Below, one piece after another: positions 9,228 through 27,155 of a stretch of 27,155 nt of DNA (positions within the stretch are counted from its first letter, which is position 1; every line of letters begins with the position of its first letter). The notes below the pieces were generated by a model. The model was not told where the DNA came from and did no database searches. It saw only the letters and a list, made by a program, of their open reading frames with translations. Origin of the DNA: a virus; the IMG/VR virus record IMGVR_UViG_3300012009_000151, positions 1 through 27,155 of that record, one strand, 5' to 3'. The position numbers were made by a program, and so were the translations under genes.

Positions 9228-9613
9228 TCCGTATTCGGCGGCGTTGGCGTGCCCTCGGCGGATAAGTCGGCAAAGTCCTCTTTCAAGATTTCTAAGAGGG
9301 TCTCCTTGACAGTCTCTAATTGCTCGGCGGCCATTCGGCTCAGGCCCGTCATCCGGGCCAGCTCGAAAAAACCAGGATTAATATCCACCAAGGCTTTCCA
9401 GAGGGTGACCAGCTCGGACAAAAGCAGATCGTCCAATTCTGCCAGGGATAGATTACACACCAATGGCAGGAGGGTCTGGATCAGGTCCTGGGGGGCCATC
9501 TCTTCTATTTTATGCCCGGAAACCATCAGGGTGCGAAGGTCACCGACACTTATCTCTTGGATTGTGACCGTGCGATCGCCTAAGCTAATCTCTTTTTTTG
9601 ATCTATTGCTCAT
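9224..9613 (-). CDS. Tail assembly chaperone (G-like)
   Basis: The protein has 129 residues from the ATG at 9613. I prefer this start to the in-frame TTG at 9628 because AAAAGG lies 6 bases before the ATG. It is acidic and helical after an N-terminal beta part (ISLGDRTVTIQEISVGDLRTL), a pattern common to gpG-type chaperones, which hold the tape measure and recruit tail tube subunits. It lies between the tail tube gene and the tape measure and is followed by an overlapping minus-1 frame with a coding-like extension. That arrangement is diagnostic of the G/GT pair. Assignment rests on synteny and frame layout more than on residue identity. Confidence 0.85.
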   Translation of the reverse strand: MSNRSKKEISLGDRTVTIQEISVGDLRTLMVSGHKIEEMAPQDLIQTLLPLVCNLSLAELDDLLLSELVTLWKALVDINPGFFELARMTGLSRMAAEQLETVKETLLEILKEDFADLSAEGTPTPPNTD

Positions 9614-9681: not shown

Positions 9682-10658
9682 ATGGTTTCGATTTTAAAAT
9701 ATTCCTGGCCGGAGGACTGGCTGGTATCTTTTACGACGGTCCCTTCGATGGGGATGGTGGCCGGGCCGTCGCCGATCAAAGACCAGTCGCCATTCATTTT
9801 CACGTTGACCTTGTGAAAGGTGATCCGGTTGCGGATGCCGTTGTCGTCCTGGTCTGTTACCATAACAACTTTTTTCTGGACCGTGGCCGCGCTCATGCCA
9901 TAAAAATAATTGACCGTGACCGCTTCGTAATCATACGAGACATAGGCCGGGGAGGTGATAGAGCCGTCAGACAAAAGTCGCAAATAACCATAATCCGCGT
10001 CTAAGCTGTAATCCGTTCCCTGGACATAGCGAGTGGTCGGCGTGCCGGAACCAACGGCCGAGTCCACCACCACCACATCCTCGGCCTCGGTAACGCCGGT
10101 AACGGTGATGTAATTACTGTCATCCAGCTCGACTTTTTCGCCGGACACAAACGTTCCGGATACATTGACCAACTCAACCAGGCCGGACTCGGTCCAGGCA
10201 ATATCTCCGGTTGCTGTCGATGTATCACCGGTCAGTGAGTCGCCACAATCCAGAGAGCCGGTGATGGTGCCGGTTAACTGGGTCACAAAAACATTAACAT
10301 GGCCCAGATCAACATATTCATCGGATACCAGGGCGACAGAGGTGTCGGACACATAGCTCGCGGACTGATCATCCGCCGACACAGATGATCCCATCAATGC
10401 CAAAAGCAGATTCTGTTCGGTCTGCTCCTGCAAACCAAAAGACAGGGCCGCGTCGCGCTCGGTTTCTTTTTCTAAAATGGTGGCCCGATCAGCGGATCGA
10501 GTGGTTTTCAGTTTGTCCGTGGACACGGTCATATTAAAATTAAACCCGTCCAGCTCGCCCAGGTCGCGCAACGAGCTGCCGGCCACCGTGCCTACATACA
10601 CCCGGCCGGTGCCATTATAGCGGATATTGTCGGCCGATGTTTCAAGATGTTCTCCCAT
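9675..10658 (-). CDS. Major tail tube protein
   Basis: This 327-residue protein lies between the tail terminator and the chaperone genes, the place of lambda gpV. The N-terminus (about 1-110) and C-terminus (about 255-327, TFHKVNVKMNGDWSLIGDG then IPIEGTVVKD) form a tail-tube-like beta domain. A central stretch (about 125-200) has the LDCGDSLTGDTSTATGDI and VSGTFVSGEKVEL pattern of an inserted beta module, perhaps exposed on the tail surface. The ATG has AAAAAAGGAG about 8 bases upstream, one of the strongest ribosome sites in the window, fitting a product needed in many copies. The family call is by synteny and fold pattern. Confidence 0.85.
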   Translation of the reverse strand: MGEHLETSADNIRYNGTGRVYVGTVAGSSLRDLGELDGFNFNMTVSTDKLKTTRSADRATILEKETERDAALSFGLQEQTEQNLLLALMGSSVSADDQSASYVSDTSVALVSDEYVDLGHVNVFVTQLTGTITGSLDCGDSLTGDTSTATGDIAWTESGLVELVNVSGTFVSGEKVELDDSNYITVTGVTEAEDVVVVDSAVGSGTPTTRYVQGTDYSLDADYGYLRLLSDGSITSPAYVSYDYEAVTVNYFYGMSAATVQKKVVMVTDQDDNGIRNRITFHKVNVKMNGDWSLIGDGPATIPIEGTVVKDTSQSSGQEYFKIETMD

Positions 10659-10677
10659 GATGTTTCTCCTTTTTTAC

Positions 10678-10697
10678 AAATTAGCCCAAATTAGCCC
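10678..10697. repeat. Perfect 10-bp tandem duplication spanning the tail terminator stop codon
   Basis: AAATTAGCCC is present twice head to tail (plus strand). The stop TAA of the tail terminator gene at 10691-10693 lies in one copy and is repeated in the other. The repeat stands directly before the ribosome site of the tail tube gene. Confidence 0.9.
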
Positions 10698-17097: not shown

Positions 17098-17318
17098 CAG
17101 TAACCCCGCACCAAGCCGACATTAAACGCGGGGCCGGAGGAGCCCTGCTCTTTGTTGTACTGATCCATCAGGTCCTTGCGGGCCGCCTGCAAATCAGCAT
17201 ATCTGTTGCGCATCAAAGAGTCACCACCAGCCCCGGCCGTCTGTAGAGCCGCCAGGGTTTTGGTGATCGCTTCGTCCAGCTCTAATATTTGCTCCAGCGT
17301 TGTTTTGGGTGTAGCCAT
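17097..17318 (-). CDS. W: Head-tail joining protein (gpW-like)
   Basis: The 73-residue protein lies directly upstream of the portal gene, as gpW does in lambda (68 residues). It has a first helix (TLEQILELDEAITKTLAALQTA), a second helix with RNRYADLQAARKDLMDQYNKEQ and a flexible GSSGPAFNVGLVRGY tail, the same plan as gpW with its final GPAGF segment. gpW joins the portal ring to the stopper after packaging. Its ribosome site GGGGG is part of a large inverted repeat, so translation may depend on RNA folding. Confidence 0.88.
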   Translation of the reverse strand: MATPKTTLEQILELDEAITKTLAALQTAGAGGDSLMRNRYADLQAARKDLMDQYNKEQGSSGPAFNVGLVRGY

Positions 17319-17323
17319 TTACG

Positions 17324-17376
17324 AAAACCCCCATGATAATAATCATAATTTTTGATCCAGCTTATCACGGGGTTTT
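17324..17376. repeat. Inverted repeat that includes the gpW ribosome site
   Basis: AAAACCCCCATGATAA (17324-17339) and TTATCACGGGGTTTT (17362-17376) are complementary apart from one mismatch and one extra base. In the minus-strand RNA the GGGGG Shine-Dalgarno of gpW would be paired in the stem and a short U-run follows. It could repress gpW translation or act as a leaky terminator at the head of the morphogenesis operon. Confidence 0.65.
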
Positions 17377-17430
17377 AGCCCAAAACCGTATAATGCCGCA
17401 AAATACCGCAAAATGATGCTAAAATGTCGA

Positions 17431-17457
17431 ATTATATATGCAGAAAAGTGTTGACAA
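17431..17457 (-). promoter_or_regulatory. Possible promoter for the morphogenesis operon
   Basis: On the minus strand TTGTCA (17452-17457) and TATAAT (17431-17436) face gpW, about 110 bases upstream of its start. The hexamers are close to sigma-70 consensus, but the spacer is 15 bases, two short of optimal. It stands in the 177-base gap between the accessory block and the head genes, a sensible place for a late promoter. Weak to moderate support. Confidence 0.35.
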
Positions 17458-17460
17458 GGG

Positions 17461-17508
17461 TTTTTAGGATTTGAGGATTTTAAGATTTTAGGATTTTATG
17501 ATTTAAGG
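17461..17508. repeat. Six 8-bp tandem repeats spanning the ASCH-like gene stop codon
   Basis: Six contiguous 8-base units fill exactly 17461-17508; minus-strand consensus is CCTAAAAT, with one or two changes per unit. The first two encode the last residues and the TAA (17496-17498) of the ASCH-like gene; the rest are non-coding, and they stop just before the possible promoter. The unit length is not a multiple of three. Confidence 0.9.
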
Positions 17509-20144: not shown

Positions 20145-20375
20145 TTATGAAAAATATATCACATCACCGGGAAAAACTTTTCCCCTTAAAACAAAATAAT
20201 CCCCGCGCCAGATTTTACCCTCTGAGTGTTTCGTGTGTGCCTTCCGGCCCGCAAAAATAAAAAATATGCGTTTAACCATCTTACCCAATAAATCTTTAAA
20301 TCTTAAAATCATCAAATAATCCCCGCTCCCTCCTTCCCCCTCCACTAATTCCACAGGCCGCCTGCCTGTAAACAA
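20145..20375 (-). CDS. Possible small basic protein (doubtful)
   Basis: This open frame begins with TTG at 20375 and has no convincing ribosome site there. An internal ATG at 20312 follows GGAGGGAG at a long distance and would give a 55-residue basic protein (FKDLLGKMVKRIFFIFAGRK). It fills the 275-base gap between its neighbours, which are otherwise tightly packed, and this is the chief argument for it. ATAATCCCCGC occurs twice in this stretch (near 20197 and 20318), so the region could instead be non-coding. No recognisable domain. Confidence 0.35.
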   Translation of the reverse strand: MFTGRRPVELVEGEGGSGDYLMILRFKDLLGKMVKRIFFIFAGRKAHTKHSEGKIWRGDYFVLRGKVFPGDVIYFS

Positions 20376-20400
20376 TTCCGGATCGGGAGGTATATGATTG

Positions 20401-20607
20401 TTAAATAATTCCTTTTTTTTTAGCCAACCACGTTGGCAGCGACACTACCACCGCGGCCGAGCTGGGCCCGGGGATCCGCGCCACCTGGATTTGACTCCGG
20501 GGGAGCCACACCCTGTTGACGCCGTCATCAAACAACCAGGCATGGCCGGATTTGGATTCGGCAATCAGATTAAAATAACACTGCATGTGTCCGTTTTCGT
20601 TATCCAT
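20401..20607 (-). CDS. Small hypothetical phage protein
   Basis: The 68-residue protein starts at an ATG 9 bases after the kinase-like stop, with GGGGGTG as ribosome site. It has a beta-hairpin pattern (QCYFNLIAESKSGHAWLFD, then NRVWLPRSQIQV) and ends in a basic VSLPTWLAKKKGII helix. Short proteins with a W-LP-S core are common in phage accessory operons, but I know no function for them. Tight spacing supports it as part of the accessory operon. Confidence 0.65.
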   Translation of the reverse strand: MDNENGHMQCYFNLIAESKSGHAWLFDDGVNRVWLPRSQIQVARIPGPSSAAVVVSLPTWLAKKKGII

Positions 20608-20619
20608 TTCACCCCCTTA

Positions 20620-24057: not shown

Positions 24058-24471
24058 CTATTTAATCAAATTTCTCCACAAACGGACCGTTTCACGATGA
24101 CACCCAACAATTTCAGCCGTCTGGGCATCAGTTCTACCCGAAAACAACAACCACAGCATCAAAACAACAGCCCGGCAAGACAACCCCTTTCCGGCCAGGA
24201 CGGTGCCCGTCCGGGCAGTAAATGTTTTACCGCAATCACACCGGATTGACAACCCCTTCCAAAACCGCGCTGATTTTTTCTTACTCAATCCCCGTCGGCA
24301 TAATGGACACCTGGCCCCGGCCGGGTGTAGCCGCTCAAAAATAAACAGCCGGCAAAAATCCCGATCCAAAAAATCAACACCAAAGCCTTGACAAGCCCAG
24401 AACAAATCAATTAATTCAATTTTAGTTGTATTTTCGGCAAGTTCCATTTTTACACCGGTTTTTTTATTCAA
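24058..24471 (-). CDS. Zinc ribbon and helix-turn-helix protein, transposase-derived type
   Basis: The protein has up to 137 residues from a TTG at 24471; an ATG at 24447 would give 129, and neither has a strong ribosome site. C55/C58 and C78/C80 with FTARTGT immediately after match the zinc ribbon of IS1/IS1595-type transposases, where an F-T-RTGT stretch follows the second pair. Residues about 113-134 (TDAQTAEIVGCHRETVRLWRNLI) form a helix-turn-helix. There is no catalytic DDE/DDN domain, so it cannot transpose. Placed 3 bases before terS, it is probably a captured DNA-binding module that regulates the packaging genes or binds the packaging site. Confidence 0.75.
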   Translation of the reverse strand: MNKKTGVKMELAENTTKIELIDLFWACQGFGVDFLDRDFCRLFIFERLHPAGARCPLCRRGLSKKKSARFWKGLSIRCDCGKTFTARTGTVLAGKGLSCRAVVLMLWLLFSGRTDAQTAEIVGCHRETVRLWRNLIK

Positions 24472-24493: not shown

Positions 24494-24763
24494 TTAGACC
24501 CCTGTGGTTGATTCCCCCGGGAAGGACCCATCGCTCGGGCGTATAATTATTTGCATATAATGTACGCGACCATCCTCTCCTCGTAGACGATCAATTTCTT
24601 TTCCAAGCGACTCAATCTTTGGTAGTAGCGCCCGGCGGGTCTCGATCGGTGCCGCGCTTGGATCATCAACCCAATCCGCTAAACTAAACAGTTTGTCTAT
24701 CAACTTGTCAATAGATGCCGCAGCTGGAGGTGTGTTGTATTTTGTAAGAGCTTTATTAAACAT
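24494..24763 (-). CDS. Hypothetical protein
   Basis: The 89-residue protein has an ATG at 24763 and a good GGAGAGG site 4 bases upstream. It is mainly helical (SIDKLIDKLFSLADWVDD and ETRRALLPKIESLGKEIDRLRGE) and ends in a short strand and Gly/Ser tail. It is the first gene after the repeat-rich region, so it may be transcribed from within that region. No family is recognised; a small helical regulator or packaging helper is possible. Confidence 0.65.
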   Translation of the reverse strand: MFNKALTKYNTPPAAASIDKLIDKLFSLADWVDDPSAAPIETRRALLPKIESLGKEIDRLRGEDGRVHYMQIIIRPSDGSFPGESTTGV

Positions 24764-24875
24764 ATTACCTCTCCTATTTCTGTTTTTTTACCCGGTCCGG
24801 GTGGTCCGGGGTGGTCCGGGTGTCTGGTCCGGGTGTAAGTTGCTGTTTTTACTGGTCTGGTCCGGGTGGTCTGGG

Positions 24876-24900
24876 TACTTTTTAACAAATCTAAAAAGTA
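24876..24900. repeat. AT-rich palindrome between repeat clusters
   Basis: TACTTTTTA (24876-24884) and TAAAAAGTA (24892-24900) are perfectly complementary with a 7-base loop. It lies between the forward and reverse clusters of the 9-base repeats and could be an easily melted element or hairpin in the candidate origin. Confidence 0.85.
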
Positions 24901-25003
24901 GGTTAGAAAAACACCACCCGCGCGCGCATACGTATTGTTTTTGCATTTCACCCGGACCACCCGGACCACCCTCCGTAACTATCTGAAAATTTAAATTATT
25001 AGC

Positions 25004-25034
25004 CGGTCCGGGTGGCTGCTTTTCACCCGGACCG
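25004..25034. repeat. GC-rich hairpin of two facing repeat copies
   Basis: CGGTCCGGGTG (25004-25014) and CACCCGGACCG (25024-25034) are perfectly complementary over 11 bases with a 9-base loop. In the minus-strand RNA the stem is followed by AT-rich sequence, not a clean U-run, so a terminator for the primase gene is possible but not strong. Confidence 0.8.
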
Positions 25035-25149
25035 AACCCGGACCACCCCGGACCGGATTACATTGGCAAGGGGTGCATTTTGCTCCAAAGGGGAAGCGGG
25101 GGCGGGGGAGACAGTTGTTGACCCTGGGGCTATATCTCCACAATAATAT

Positions 25150-27155
25150 TTATTCGGCCGATTCCACATCAATACTGATCCCCTTAATCACATACGTCCT
25201 CTTACCATCCACACGCGGCCGGATCAACTGTAAATTATCCCGGGCCGCATATAGCTCTCTAAAGAAATTCTCCCGGGAAAACGCTCGGTATCCATCCCGG
25301 GTGCAATATTCGCGGTACTGAGAATACAACACATCTTTTTCCACTTGATGTCCCTCGCCGATGTCACACACATCATCAACAAAACACAGCACTGGATTAT
25401 TAAGCCGCCGATATCCCAACAACTGATCCCGCGTTTCCTGCGAATCGGTGAATCTATTTTGATCCCACAATCTCCGGAGCCCAACCAGCGCCCAGGTGAA
25501 AATTTCCGACAACTCCTCCCGCAATTTGTTATATAATCTTGGGTCGGTAGCAGGATCACCCTCCCGGAATTGACGCTTAAACTGTATCGGCATGACCCGC
25601 CGATAAAACCCGTCGCTATTATCAATTACCCTGGGGAGTCGGTTTGCTGAAAAAACGAGCTTGCAAAACGGCACAAATTCAAACGTATCCTTGTGCTTAA
25701 ACGCCGCATTGATGGGATCACCGCTGGATATTTTCTTAAAATATTCAGACTCCAGGGACAGAGCCGCGGTCTCGGTCGAAAAGTTAACTGATTTCTGGTA
25801 CAGGCTGGCCCGCAAGAACTGGTTTTCGAGCTCGTTGAATGAAACGCTGGATGTGTTCTCATCGCCGACCATGTCCCTCAATATTTTCAGCATGACACTT
25901 TTGCCGTCGCTTCCCGGACCGACCAGGAACATAGATTTAGCATGCAGCACGTCTTTGGTTAAACAATAGCCGAAAAACTCCTGCACTTGTTGAATCACGT
26001 CCGGGGTCTGAACGGTCTCGCTGAGATAACTCAACCACCTGGAGCACATGCGATCGCTGTCCGGATCCCAGACAACATTGAGCTCAAACGTCGCATAATA
26101 ATCTTTATCATGCGGCGATAACGCCCATGACTCCAGATCCAACATTCCGTTTTTCAAACAGATTAAATTTTTATTATCATTAACATCCCGGCCATCGGGC
26201 AGGGTTGATAAATTTTTGACTTGATAAACCGCATCTTCAACGCGGCTTTTTTGCGCCTCTAATCCCAGCATCCGAATCGCCATGCTTTTCAGGTGCTCCT
26301 CGTGGAATAGCTGCCAGTATCGCCCGTTCCATCGATAAAACAACCCGCTCCCGGGATTATACAGCACATCGAATTTCTCCATTATTTTTTCAGCCAGGAG
26401 GCTCGATTTAAACGACGCCCGCCCCGACACGCCAAACTCAAAAAACTCTCCTGCCCGCGACGACTCATGCCGCAACACATCCACCGGCGCGGCCTCATCA
26501 ACCAGAGCCCACCAGTCATCCATTGTTTTCTTATGCGTGATAAAAAAATCAGTCAGATCCTGCCCGCCCTTGGCCGGCCAGGTGCCGTCAACCTCTCGGC
26601 CCATATACTCCGGCCACTGAATAACCCGCAACGACCGCACAACTTTGCCCAAATACGGGACAACCACATTAACATAATCCTGCCCCACCTGATCCGCGTC
26701 TAATGCCAAGATAACATCCCGATTTTCAAACGCGGCCGCCATCGCCCGGGTCCATTTCTTTGGCCTGCTGGTCAGGGTGATGGCGTTGATGTCGTGACTG
26801 ATCGCGCAAAGCGTATCAGATTCACCCTCCACCAGCACAACCGGTGATTTTTCAGGGTGGGGGGAGGCGGGGAACAGCCGGGCCGATCCATAGCCGGCGC
26901 CCCAGGATATCATTTTCGATTCGTTCTCCCGGAGCTTGCCGGGCTTATATAGCCGGATGTTGCGGACGTGTCCGTCCGTATCGCGTATCGGTATAGCCAC
27001 GCGCTCCGGTGTTCTTAATTTTTTTAAATCACCGCCACCCCTGGGCTGATAATGCGTCTGGAGCCGAATATCAAGCTGCTCAATCGCCTCGGCCGTCCAC
27101 CCGCGCTTTACACTTAGATGCTCAACCCACGTTGCCGGCAACGGCGGGAATTGTT
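25150..27155 (-). CDS. Phage primase-helicase (TOPRIM plus D5/SF3 helicase), 5' end cut by window edge
   Basis: The frame stays open to the right edge; the first start-like codon inside (TTG at 27141) is probably internal, and a zinc-binding primase domain is likely beyond the edge. Numbered from that TTG: TOPRIM motifs EGESD (105-109) and LALDAD (145-150), then GGQDLTDFF near 192-200. The D5-type linker has NLICLKNGMLDLESW near 325-339. The SF3 helicase has Walker A GPGSDGKS (408-415) and sensor-like KLVFSANRLP (494-503). P4 alpha-like proteins of this plan prime and unwind phage DNA and may recognise an iteron origin; such repeats lie directly after this gene. Confidence 0.93.
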   Translation of the reverse strand, partial: QFPPLPATWVEHLSVKRGWTAEAIEQLDIRLQTHYQPRGGGDLKKLRTPERVAIPIRDTDGHVRNIRLYKPGKLRENESKMISWGAGYGSARLFPASPHPEKSPVVLVEGESDTLCAISHDINAITLTSRPKKWTRAMAAAFENRDVILALDADQVGQDYVNVVVPYLGKVVRSLRVIQWPEYMGREVDGTWPAKGGQDLTDFFITHKKTMDDWWALVDEAAPVDVLRHESSRAGEFFEFGVSGRASFKSSLLAEKIMEKFDVLYNPGSGLFYRWNGRYWQLFHEEHLKSMAIRMLGLEAQKSRVEDAVYQVKNLSTLPDGRDVNDNKNLICLKNGMLDLESWALSPHDKDYYATFELNVVWDPDSDRMCSRWLSYLSETVQTPDVIQQVQEFFGYCLTKDVLHAKSMFLVGPGSDGKSVMLKILRDMVGDENTSSVSFNELENQFLRASLYQKSVNFSTETAALSLESEYFKKISSGDPINAAFKHKDTFEFVPFCKLVFSANRLPRVIDNSDGFYRRVMPIQFKRQFREGDPATDPRLYNKLREELSEIFTWALVGLRRLWDQNRFTDSQETRDQLLGYRRLNNPVLCFVDDVCDIGEGHQVEKDVLYSQYREYCTRDGYRAFSRENFFRELYAARDNLQLIRPRVDGKRTYVIKGISIDVESAE

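Follow-up and report, generated by a model that had tools for sequence, protein, structure and literature searches.

An iteron array 3′ of a P4 alpha-type primase-helicase gene in a tailed-phage contig: a probable replication origin whose repeat word covaries with an initiator residue

A 265-bp array of short repeats (24790–25054), directly 3′ of a primase-helicase gene, is very probably a phage replication origin of the bacteriophage P4 alpha/PICI type. The array lies in an IMG/VR virus record (linear), the whole of which (27,155 bp; hereafter the window) was analysed. A first-pass annotation of the same DNA had proposed a candidate origin beside a P4 alpha-like primase-helicase, and this proposal is now supported by conservation of the array 3′ of homologous primases, by covariation between iterons and initiator, and by a match to the spacing of P4 ori1. 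The minus strand of the window encodes a gpA-type terminase, a lambda-type portal, an S49 protease, a major head protein, a major tail protein and a tape measure protein, and because these virion genes are present the window is taken to be part of a tailed phage rather than an obvious satellite. The array sits between two same-strand genes, with terminase genes within 2 kb after it. No family was found for the adjoining 89-aa ORF. Downstream, a 137-aa zinc/HTH-like protein (24058–24471), for which no PHROG match was found, is kept in four relatives (L005, L069, L074 and L114).

The repeat cluster reported in the first-pass annotation was recovered in full, with nine exact and three to four one-mismatch copies of GGTCCGGGT/ACCCGGACC (Table 1). 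The maximum for any 9-mer in 1000 dinucleotide shuffles of the array region was three copies, and the best 386-bp tile elsewhere in the window held four copies of a different word. Read on the primase strand, in bp from the stop codon, the proximal arm has forward iterons at 95, 105 and 116, an inverted iteron at 136 and forward iterons at 182 and 191; after a 73-bp centre, the distal arm has inverted iterons at 273, 282, 315, 328, 338 and 347. Short reading frames across the array are unlikely to be genes, since most of the spacings (9, 10, 11 and 13) are not divisible by three and relatives differ in their word. An 11-bp GC hairpin described earlier (25004–25014/25024–25034) is present but belongs to the iteron layout, its spacing being conserved and also found in P4, and a 9-bp palindrome (24876–24884/24892–24900) is likewise present but is not conserved as an exact palindrome, only an AT-rich tract being kept there. 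The description of the region as the longest gene-free stretch could not be upheld, as two slightly longer stretches (20200–20619 and 17098–17495) are also without ORFs ≥80 aa.

Table 1. Features of the array and its surroundings in the window (strand signs follow single positions where copies are listed).
Feature	Position	Strand	Remarks
89-aa ORF	24494..24763	-	Adjoins the array; outside the replicator as far as tested
Exact iteron copies	24794+, 24813+, 24826+, 24859+, 24950-, 24959-, 25005+, 25025-, 25036-		
One-mismatch iteron copies	24803+, 24868+, 25046-, overlapping 24790-		
Outer distal iterons	24794..24834	+	24826, 24813, 24803 (1 mismatch), 24794
Inner iteron pair, distal	24859..24876	+	24859 exact, 24868 one mismatch
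AT-rich tract, probable unwinding element	24877..24914	.	76% AT; holds most of the palindrome noted earlier; beside the distal inner pair
Alternating purine-pyrimidine (Z-prone) tract CGCGCGCGCATACGTAT	24919..24935	.	17 nt; beside the proximal inner pair
Inner iteron pair, primase-proximal	24950..24967	-	24959, 24950; spacing 9
Inverted iteron	25005..25013	+	Pairs with 25025-25033 as 11-bp hairpin; position kept in relatives and P4
Outer iteron triple	25025..25054	-	25046 (1 mismatch), 25036, 25025; spacing 10, 11 as in P4 ori1
P4 alpha-type primase-helicase	25150..27141	-	5′ end lost at contig end; Pfam Toprim, D5_N, DUF5906 helicase, C-terminal Pox_D5/RFX-like winged helix (about residues 581-656)
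Tyr650 codon (numbered from ORF start 27141)	25192..25194	-	Covaries with the iteron word

The layout agrees closely with that of P4, whose record places type-1 repeats at 9310, 9320, 9331, 9353 (inverted), 9396 and 9406. Expressed as offsets, the half-array of the window (0, 10, 21, 41 inverted, 87, 96) and P4 ori1 (0, 10, 21, 43 inverted, 86, 96) are at most 2 bp apart at every position with equal orientations, which argues that the P4-type reading is right; one in two million random layouts fits P4 ori1 as well as the window does. The mixed orientation of the repeats had been thought to set them apart from P4-type systems, a distinction that falls away as the type-1 repeats of the P4 record stand in both orientations with the same order and spacing. 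Among the tabulated relatives, which together with the window use seven words, 12 of 13 are at most 4 bp from the P4 layout and one (L114) is off by 11 bp. The proteins agree as well, sharing Toprim, D5_N, DUF5906 and Pox_D5 domains, and the P4 alpha-type combination of zinc-binding domain, Toprim, D5_N/SF3-type helicase and C-terminal winged helix was found, the zinc finger in full-length relatives only. P4 differs in its word (GGTGAACA), in being a satellite where the window is a tailed-phage piece, and in its split origin, with ori1 and crr about 4.7 kb apart where the window has both arms in one 265-bp site. P4 crr is 46 bp 3′ of alpha, like the 3′ place of the array here, but consists of two 120-bp direct repeats; the window has a single array with arms flanking one centre and no such separate crr.

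Arrays of this kind recur beside related primases. Exact matches to GGTCCGGGTGGTCCGGG occurred in many of the viral contigs scanned, about 20 of which had the same opposed arrays, and wherever a relative of the window primase (49–70% identical) was present among the scanned contigs the array was 3′ of it. L005, a relative with 70% identity, keeps this layout with GGTCAGGGT as its word. Profile searches with the primase gave about 100 unique relatives, and in an unsupervised search covering the 600 bp downstream of each gene, a 9-mer repeated at least five times occurred in 52% of 100 regions compared to 0.4% of 979 control tiles. The words found included GGTCCGGGT, GGTCAGGGT, GGTCAAGG, TGTCCGGG, TGGCACAGG and TGATCCAAG, among others, and spacing and orientation were constant across relatives while the word changed, the distal arm conserving the order 33, 13, 10 and 9 bp. 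The expectation that the repeat would recur beside homologous primases was thereby borne out for about half of the 100 relatives, rather than the repeat being absent there. For about a third, a clear array was not found in the 600 bp tested; some of these have an array further away (L074), and others include L164, L181 and L293. Three cultured actinophages with distant primases (22–24% identical) had no array, so the system is not universal in this primase family. Three candidate loci (L028, L097 and L078) and most two-hit matches in genome contigs were rejected as coding repeats, unlinked or chance. L005 carries, at 10045–10695 between its genes for the small and large terminase, another stretch with 40% identity to the helicase region of the primase, and in L270 (7660–9551) a GGTCAGGGT array stands beside a 530-aa protein, perhaps a further initiator type, with DUF5906 as the sole recognised domain.

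Full-length relatives of the primase, of about 800 aa, have a CHC2 zinc finger at the N-terminus (PF01807, where P4 has PF08273), so about 140–150 N-terminal residues are missing from the window protein. Several relatives have a C-terminal domain match to the Pfam RFX DNA-binding family, and the domain also matches RFX5 (chain 8zjr_M), where a Tyr occupies the same alignment column as Tyr650. An AF2 model of the window primase (pLDDT 84.9) places residue 650 in the wing, where the last strand of the winged helix begins. In RFX1 it is the wing that inserts into the major groove, in place of the recognition helix (PMC4212688, citing Gajiwala 2000), which makes a wing residue a reasonable determinant of the word.

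Residue 650 follows the iteron word closely. The hypothesis was formed on a first alignment and then put to a blind scan that covered 709 columns of a 27-protein alignment under strict iteron labels; Tyr650 was the top column (z = 7.83; second-best, 3.63). Under these labels the residue is Tyr in 9/10 proteins with GTCCG, while the others have Q, Q, N, N, W, N, Q, N, Q, C, E and Q (GTCAG), A, P and P (GTCAA), and R and R (GTCCA). The single non-Tyr member of the GTCCG group (L054, Arg) has six GTCCG and six GTCCA iterons and, the two being equal in number, was dropped as an exception. Relaxed counting adds GTCCA with Arg in four loci (L178, L183, L197 and L296) and GTCAA with Pro in L180, and makes L303 an exception; L303, L291, L292 and L161 deviate from the simplest residue code. 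At least 13 changes of word class were counted on a tree from which the C-terminal domain had been left out, and independent pairs changing in the same direction numbered six on supported branches and nine on all branches (sign test p 0.03); all six supported pairs agree in nearly all pairings. Close sisters switch residue and word jointly (L091/L171, L114/L156, L081/L273, and the window with L069 against L005 with L148). Outside the set on which the hypothesis was formed, 12/12 clear cases agree, a small test (Fisher p 0.015); fitting loci include L083 (Tyr, 26% identical) and L278 and L280 (Gln, ~27% identical). The wing is built differently in a more distant subfamily with TGTCCGGG words (36–41% identical, e.g. 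L184), which was left out. From this covariation we infer that the initiator binds the iterons through its C-terminal winged helix.

The centre of the array holds a second conserved element, absent from the first-pass annotation. The alternating purine-pyrimidine tract is the only such run of at least 13 nt in the window, and a 17–37 nt run was present at the same place in 22/22 D5-type centres measured (window included), which were picked for a delimitable centre and not for the tract; alternating runs ≥13 nt occurred in 0.9% of control tiles. Such tracts can take up Z-DNA under negative supercoiling. In the literature searched, no precedent for a Z-prone tract at such origins was found, and P4 is without the tract. 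Runs of 14–17 nt also lie near paired repeats in VapE-type cultured phages (Marinobacter PS3 and Pseudomonas LPPA36) and in the Salinibacter plasmid pSR11. The pSR11 locus (L334, 2725–2870, with a P4-family primase) has a 17-nt alternating tract flanked by two 9-bp-spaced CTAACACAG pairs, the layout in minimal form.

Conservation, geometry and covariation are what the analysis shows; taken as an origin, the array would work as follows. The primase-helicase would bind the GGTCCGGGT iterons through its RFX-like winged helix, with Tyr650 in the wing probably reading the variable bases after GTC, as the covariation suggests. By analogy with SaPI and SV40, the iteron sets facing across the 73-bp centre may load two opposed SF3-type hexamers, which would melt the AT-rich tract, possibly with help from the neighbouring Z-prone tract, after which the Toprim domain could prime both strands for bidirectional synthesis. 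More tentatively, and as a possibility rather than an expectation, a large group of tailed phages may share this replicator, with one initiator wing residue setting the word (Tyr with GTCCG, Gln/Asn with GTCAG, Arg with GTCCA, Pro/Ala with GTCAA), incompatible specificities arising by point change plus iteron turnover, and the Z-prone tract acting as a functional part of the melting site not known from P4. The residue-word correspondence bears on initiator-origin specificity and on how it could switch repeatedly without loss of replication, and can be tested by single mutations; the fact that the geometry stays fixed as words change amounts to a natural experiment on the requirements of the nucleoprotein complex, and the conserved alternating tract raises the question of a part in melting.

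Several other replicons share parts of this organisation. PICI origins lie directly 3′ of rep, have an AT-rich region between two iteron sets and allow a plasmid to be maintained (PMC6092414); in the window the array is likewise directly 3′ of the primase gene, with the first iteron ~95 bp past the stop codon and iteron sets flanking an AT-rich region (76%). This group also supplies the closest structures for both initiator families considered here, SaPI5 primase-helicase (7OLA) being the best PDB fold match (Foldseek) for the D5 family and PriRep1 (7PDS) for the VapE-type family, the model of which is poor in the helicase part. PICI/SaPI elements differ in being phage satellites, while the window carries a virion gene set (capsid, portal, terminase, tape measure and tail); an origin organisation described as peculiar to phage satellites is thus extended to virion-encoding phages, which bears on the source of satellite replicons. 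SaPI origins reportedly load a head-to-head pair of hexamers and have been likened to SV40 (PMC9894130); SV40-type origins resemble the window in opposed repeats that load such hexamers (for the window by analogy) and differ in DNA-binding domain and iteron. In pRN1 the origin follows the 3′ end of a gene for a primase-helicase that carries a winged helix at its C-terminus (PMC4234260), as does the site in the window, but the pRN1 primase is archaeo-eukaryotic and its origin has a 100-nt stem-loop, whereas the window has a Toprim-type primase and iterons, and no long stem-loop was found in the array besides the iteron pairs. Iteron theta plasmids (RepA/pi) have direct iterons ~22 bp apart and a Rep_3-type initiator, in contrast to the 9–13 bp spacing, opposed arms and primase-helicase of the window.

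Other roles for the array were weighed against replication initiation. It could be an operator through which the winged helix or another regulator controls the primase operon or the downstream packaging genes, the origin being elsewhere. Its place between same-strand genes suits this, and binding by the primase C-terminus would permit autoregulation; yet the array is 3′ of the primase and not 5′, its opposed arms surround an AT-rich centre as in the tested PICI origins (PMC6092414), and its layout matches annotated P4 ori1, so that an operator appears unlikely. The proximity of the terminase genes (<2 kb on), and of the array to terL in VapE-type contigs, could instead point to a site for lagging-strand priming, termination or packaging (pac/cos) used by the primase-helicase or terminase, and not for initiation. 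This is very improbable given that the word covaries with a primase residue and that the array is found near the primase stop codon in two different primase families. Exact repeats in both orientations could also come from a family of mobile or selfish palindromes unconnected with replication, a reading that is scarcely credible, as each contig has one cluster with almost no copies outside it, the geometry is constant while the word varies, and the covariation with the wing residue contradicts it. A change in GC skew had also been predicted for an origin at this site; the skew changes sign at the array in neither the window nor any of five longer relatives and, treated as weak evidence for short phage genomes, was rejected as evidence for the origin.

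The GGTCCGGGT word is also used, mostly as a near-perfect dyad, by a second initiator family (VapE-type; DUF7146, Toprim_3 and VapE-like helicase; 746–794 aa) in alphaproteobacterial genomes and virus contigs. Relatives within this family use GGTCCCAGT, GGCAACGGT and GGTCAGGGT, and a C-terminal RE-x-RY motif changes correspondingly (few sequences). Profile comparison of the VapE and D5 C-terminal domains was not significant, the Toprim region alone matching, weakly, and the word common to the two families may reflect convergence or an exchanged site. Arrays of GGTCCGGGT with VapE-type primases were seen in Pararhizobium antarcticum (L132), Rhabdonatronobacter (L140), Pseudorhodobacter aquimaris (L144) and a Rhodospirillales MAG (L138), the first three of which also carry gpA terminase genes and are possible prophages. 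In a further set of virus contigs (L221–L246), the VapE-family N-terminal DUF7146/Toprim part is followed by a D5-like helicase and a different C-terminal domain, an apparent domain exchange between initiator families, and the word 3′ of these primases is weakly GGTGACGCA.
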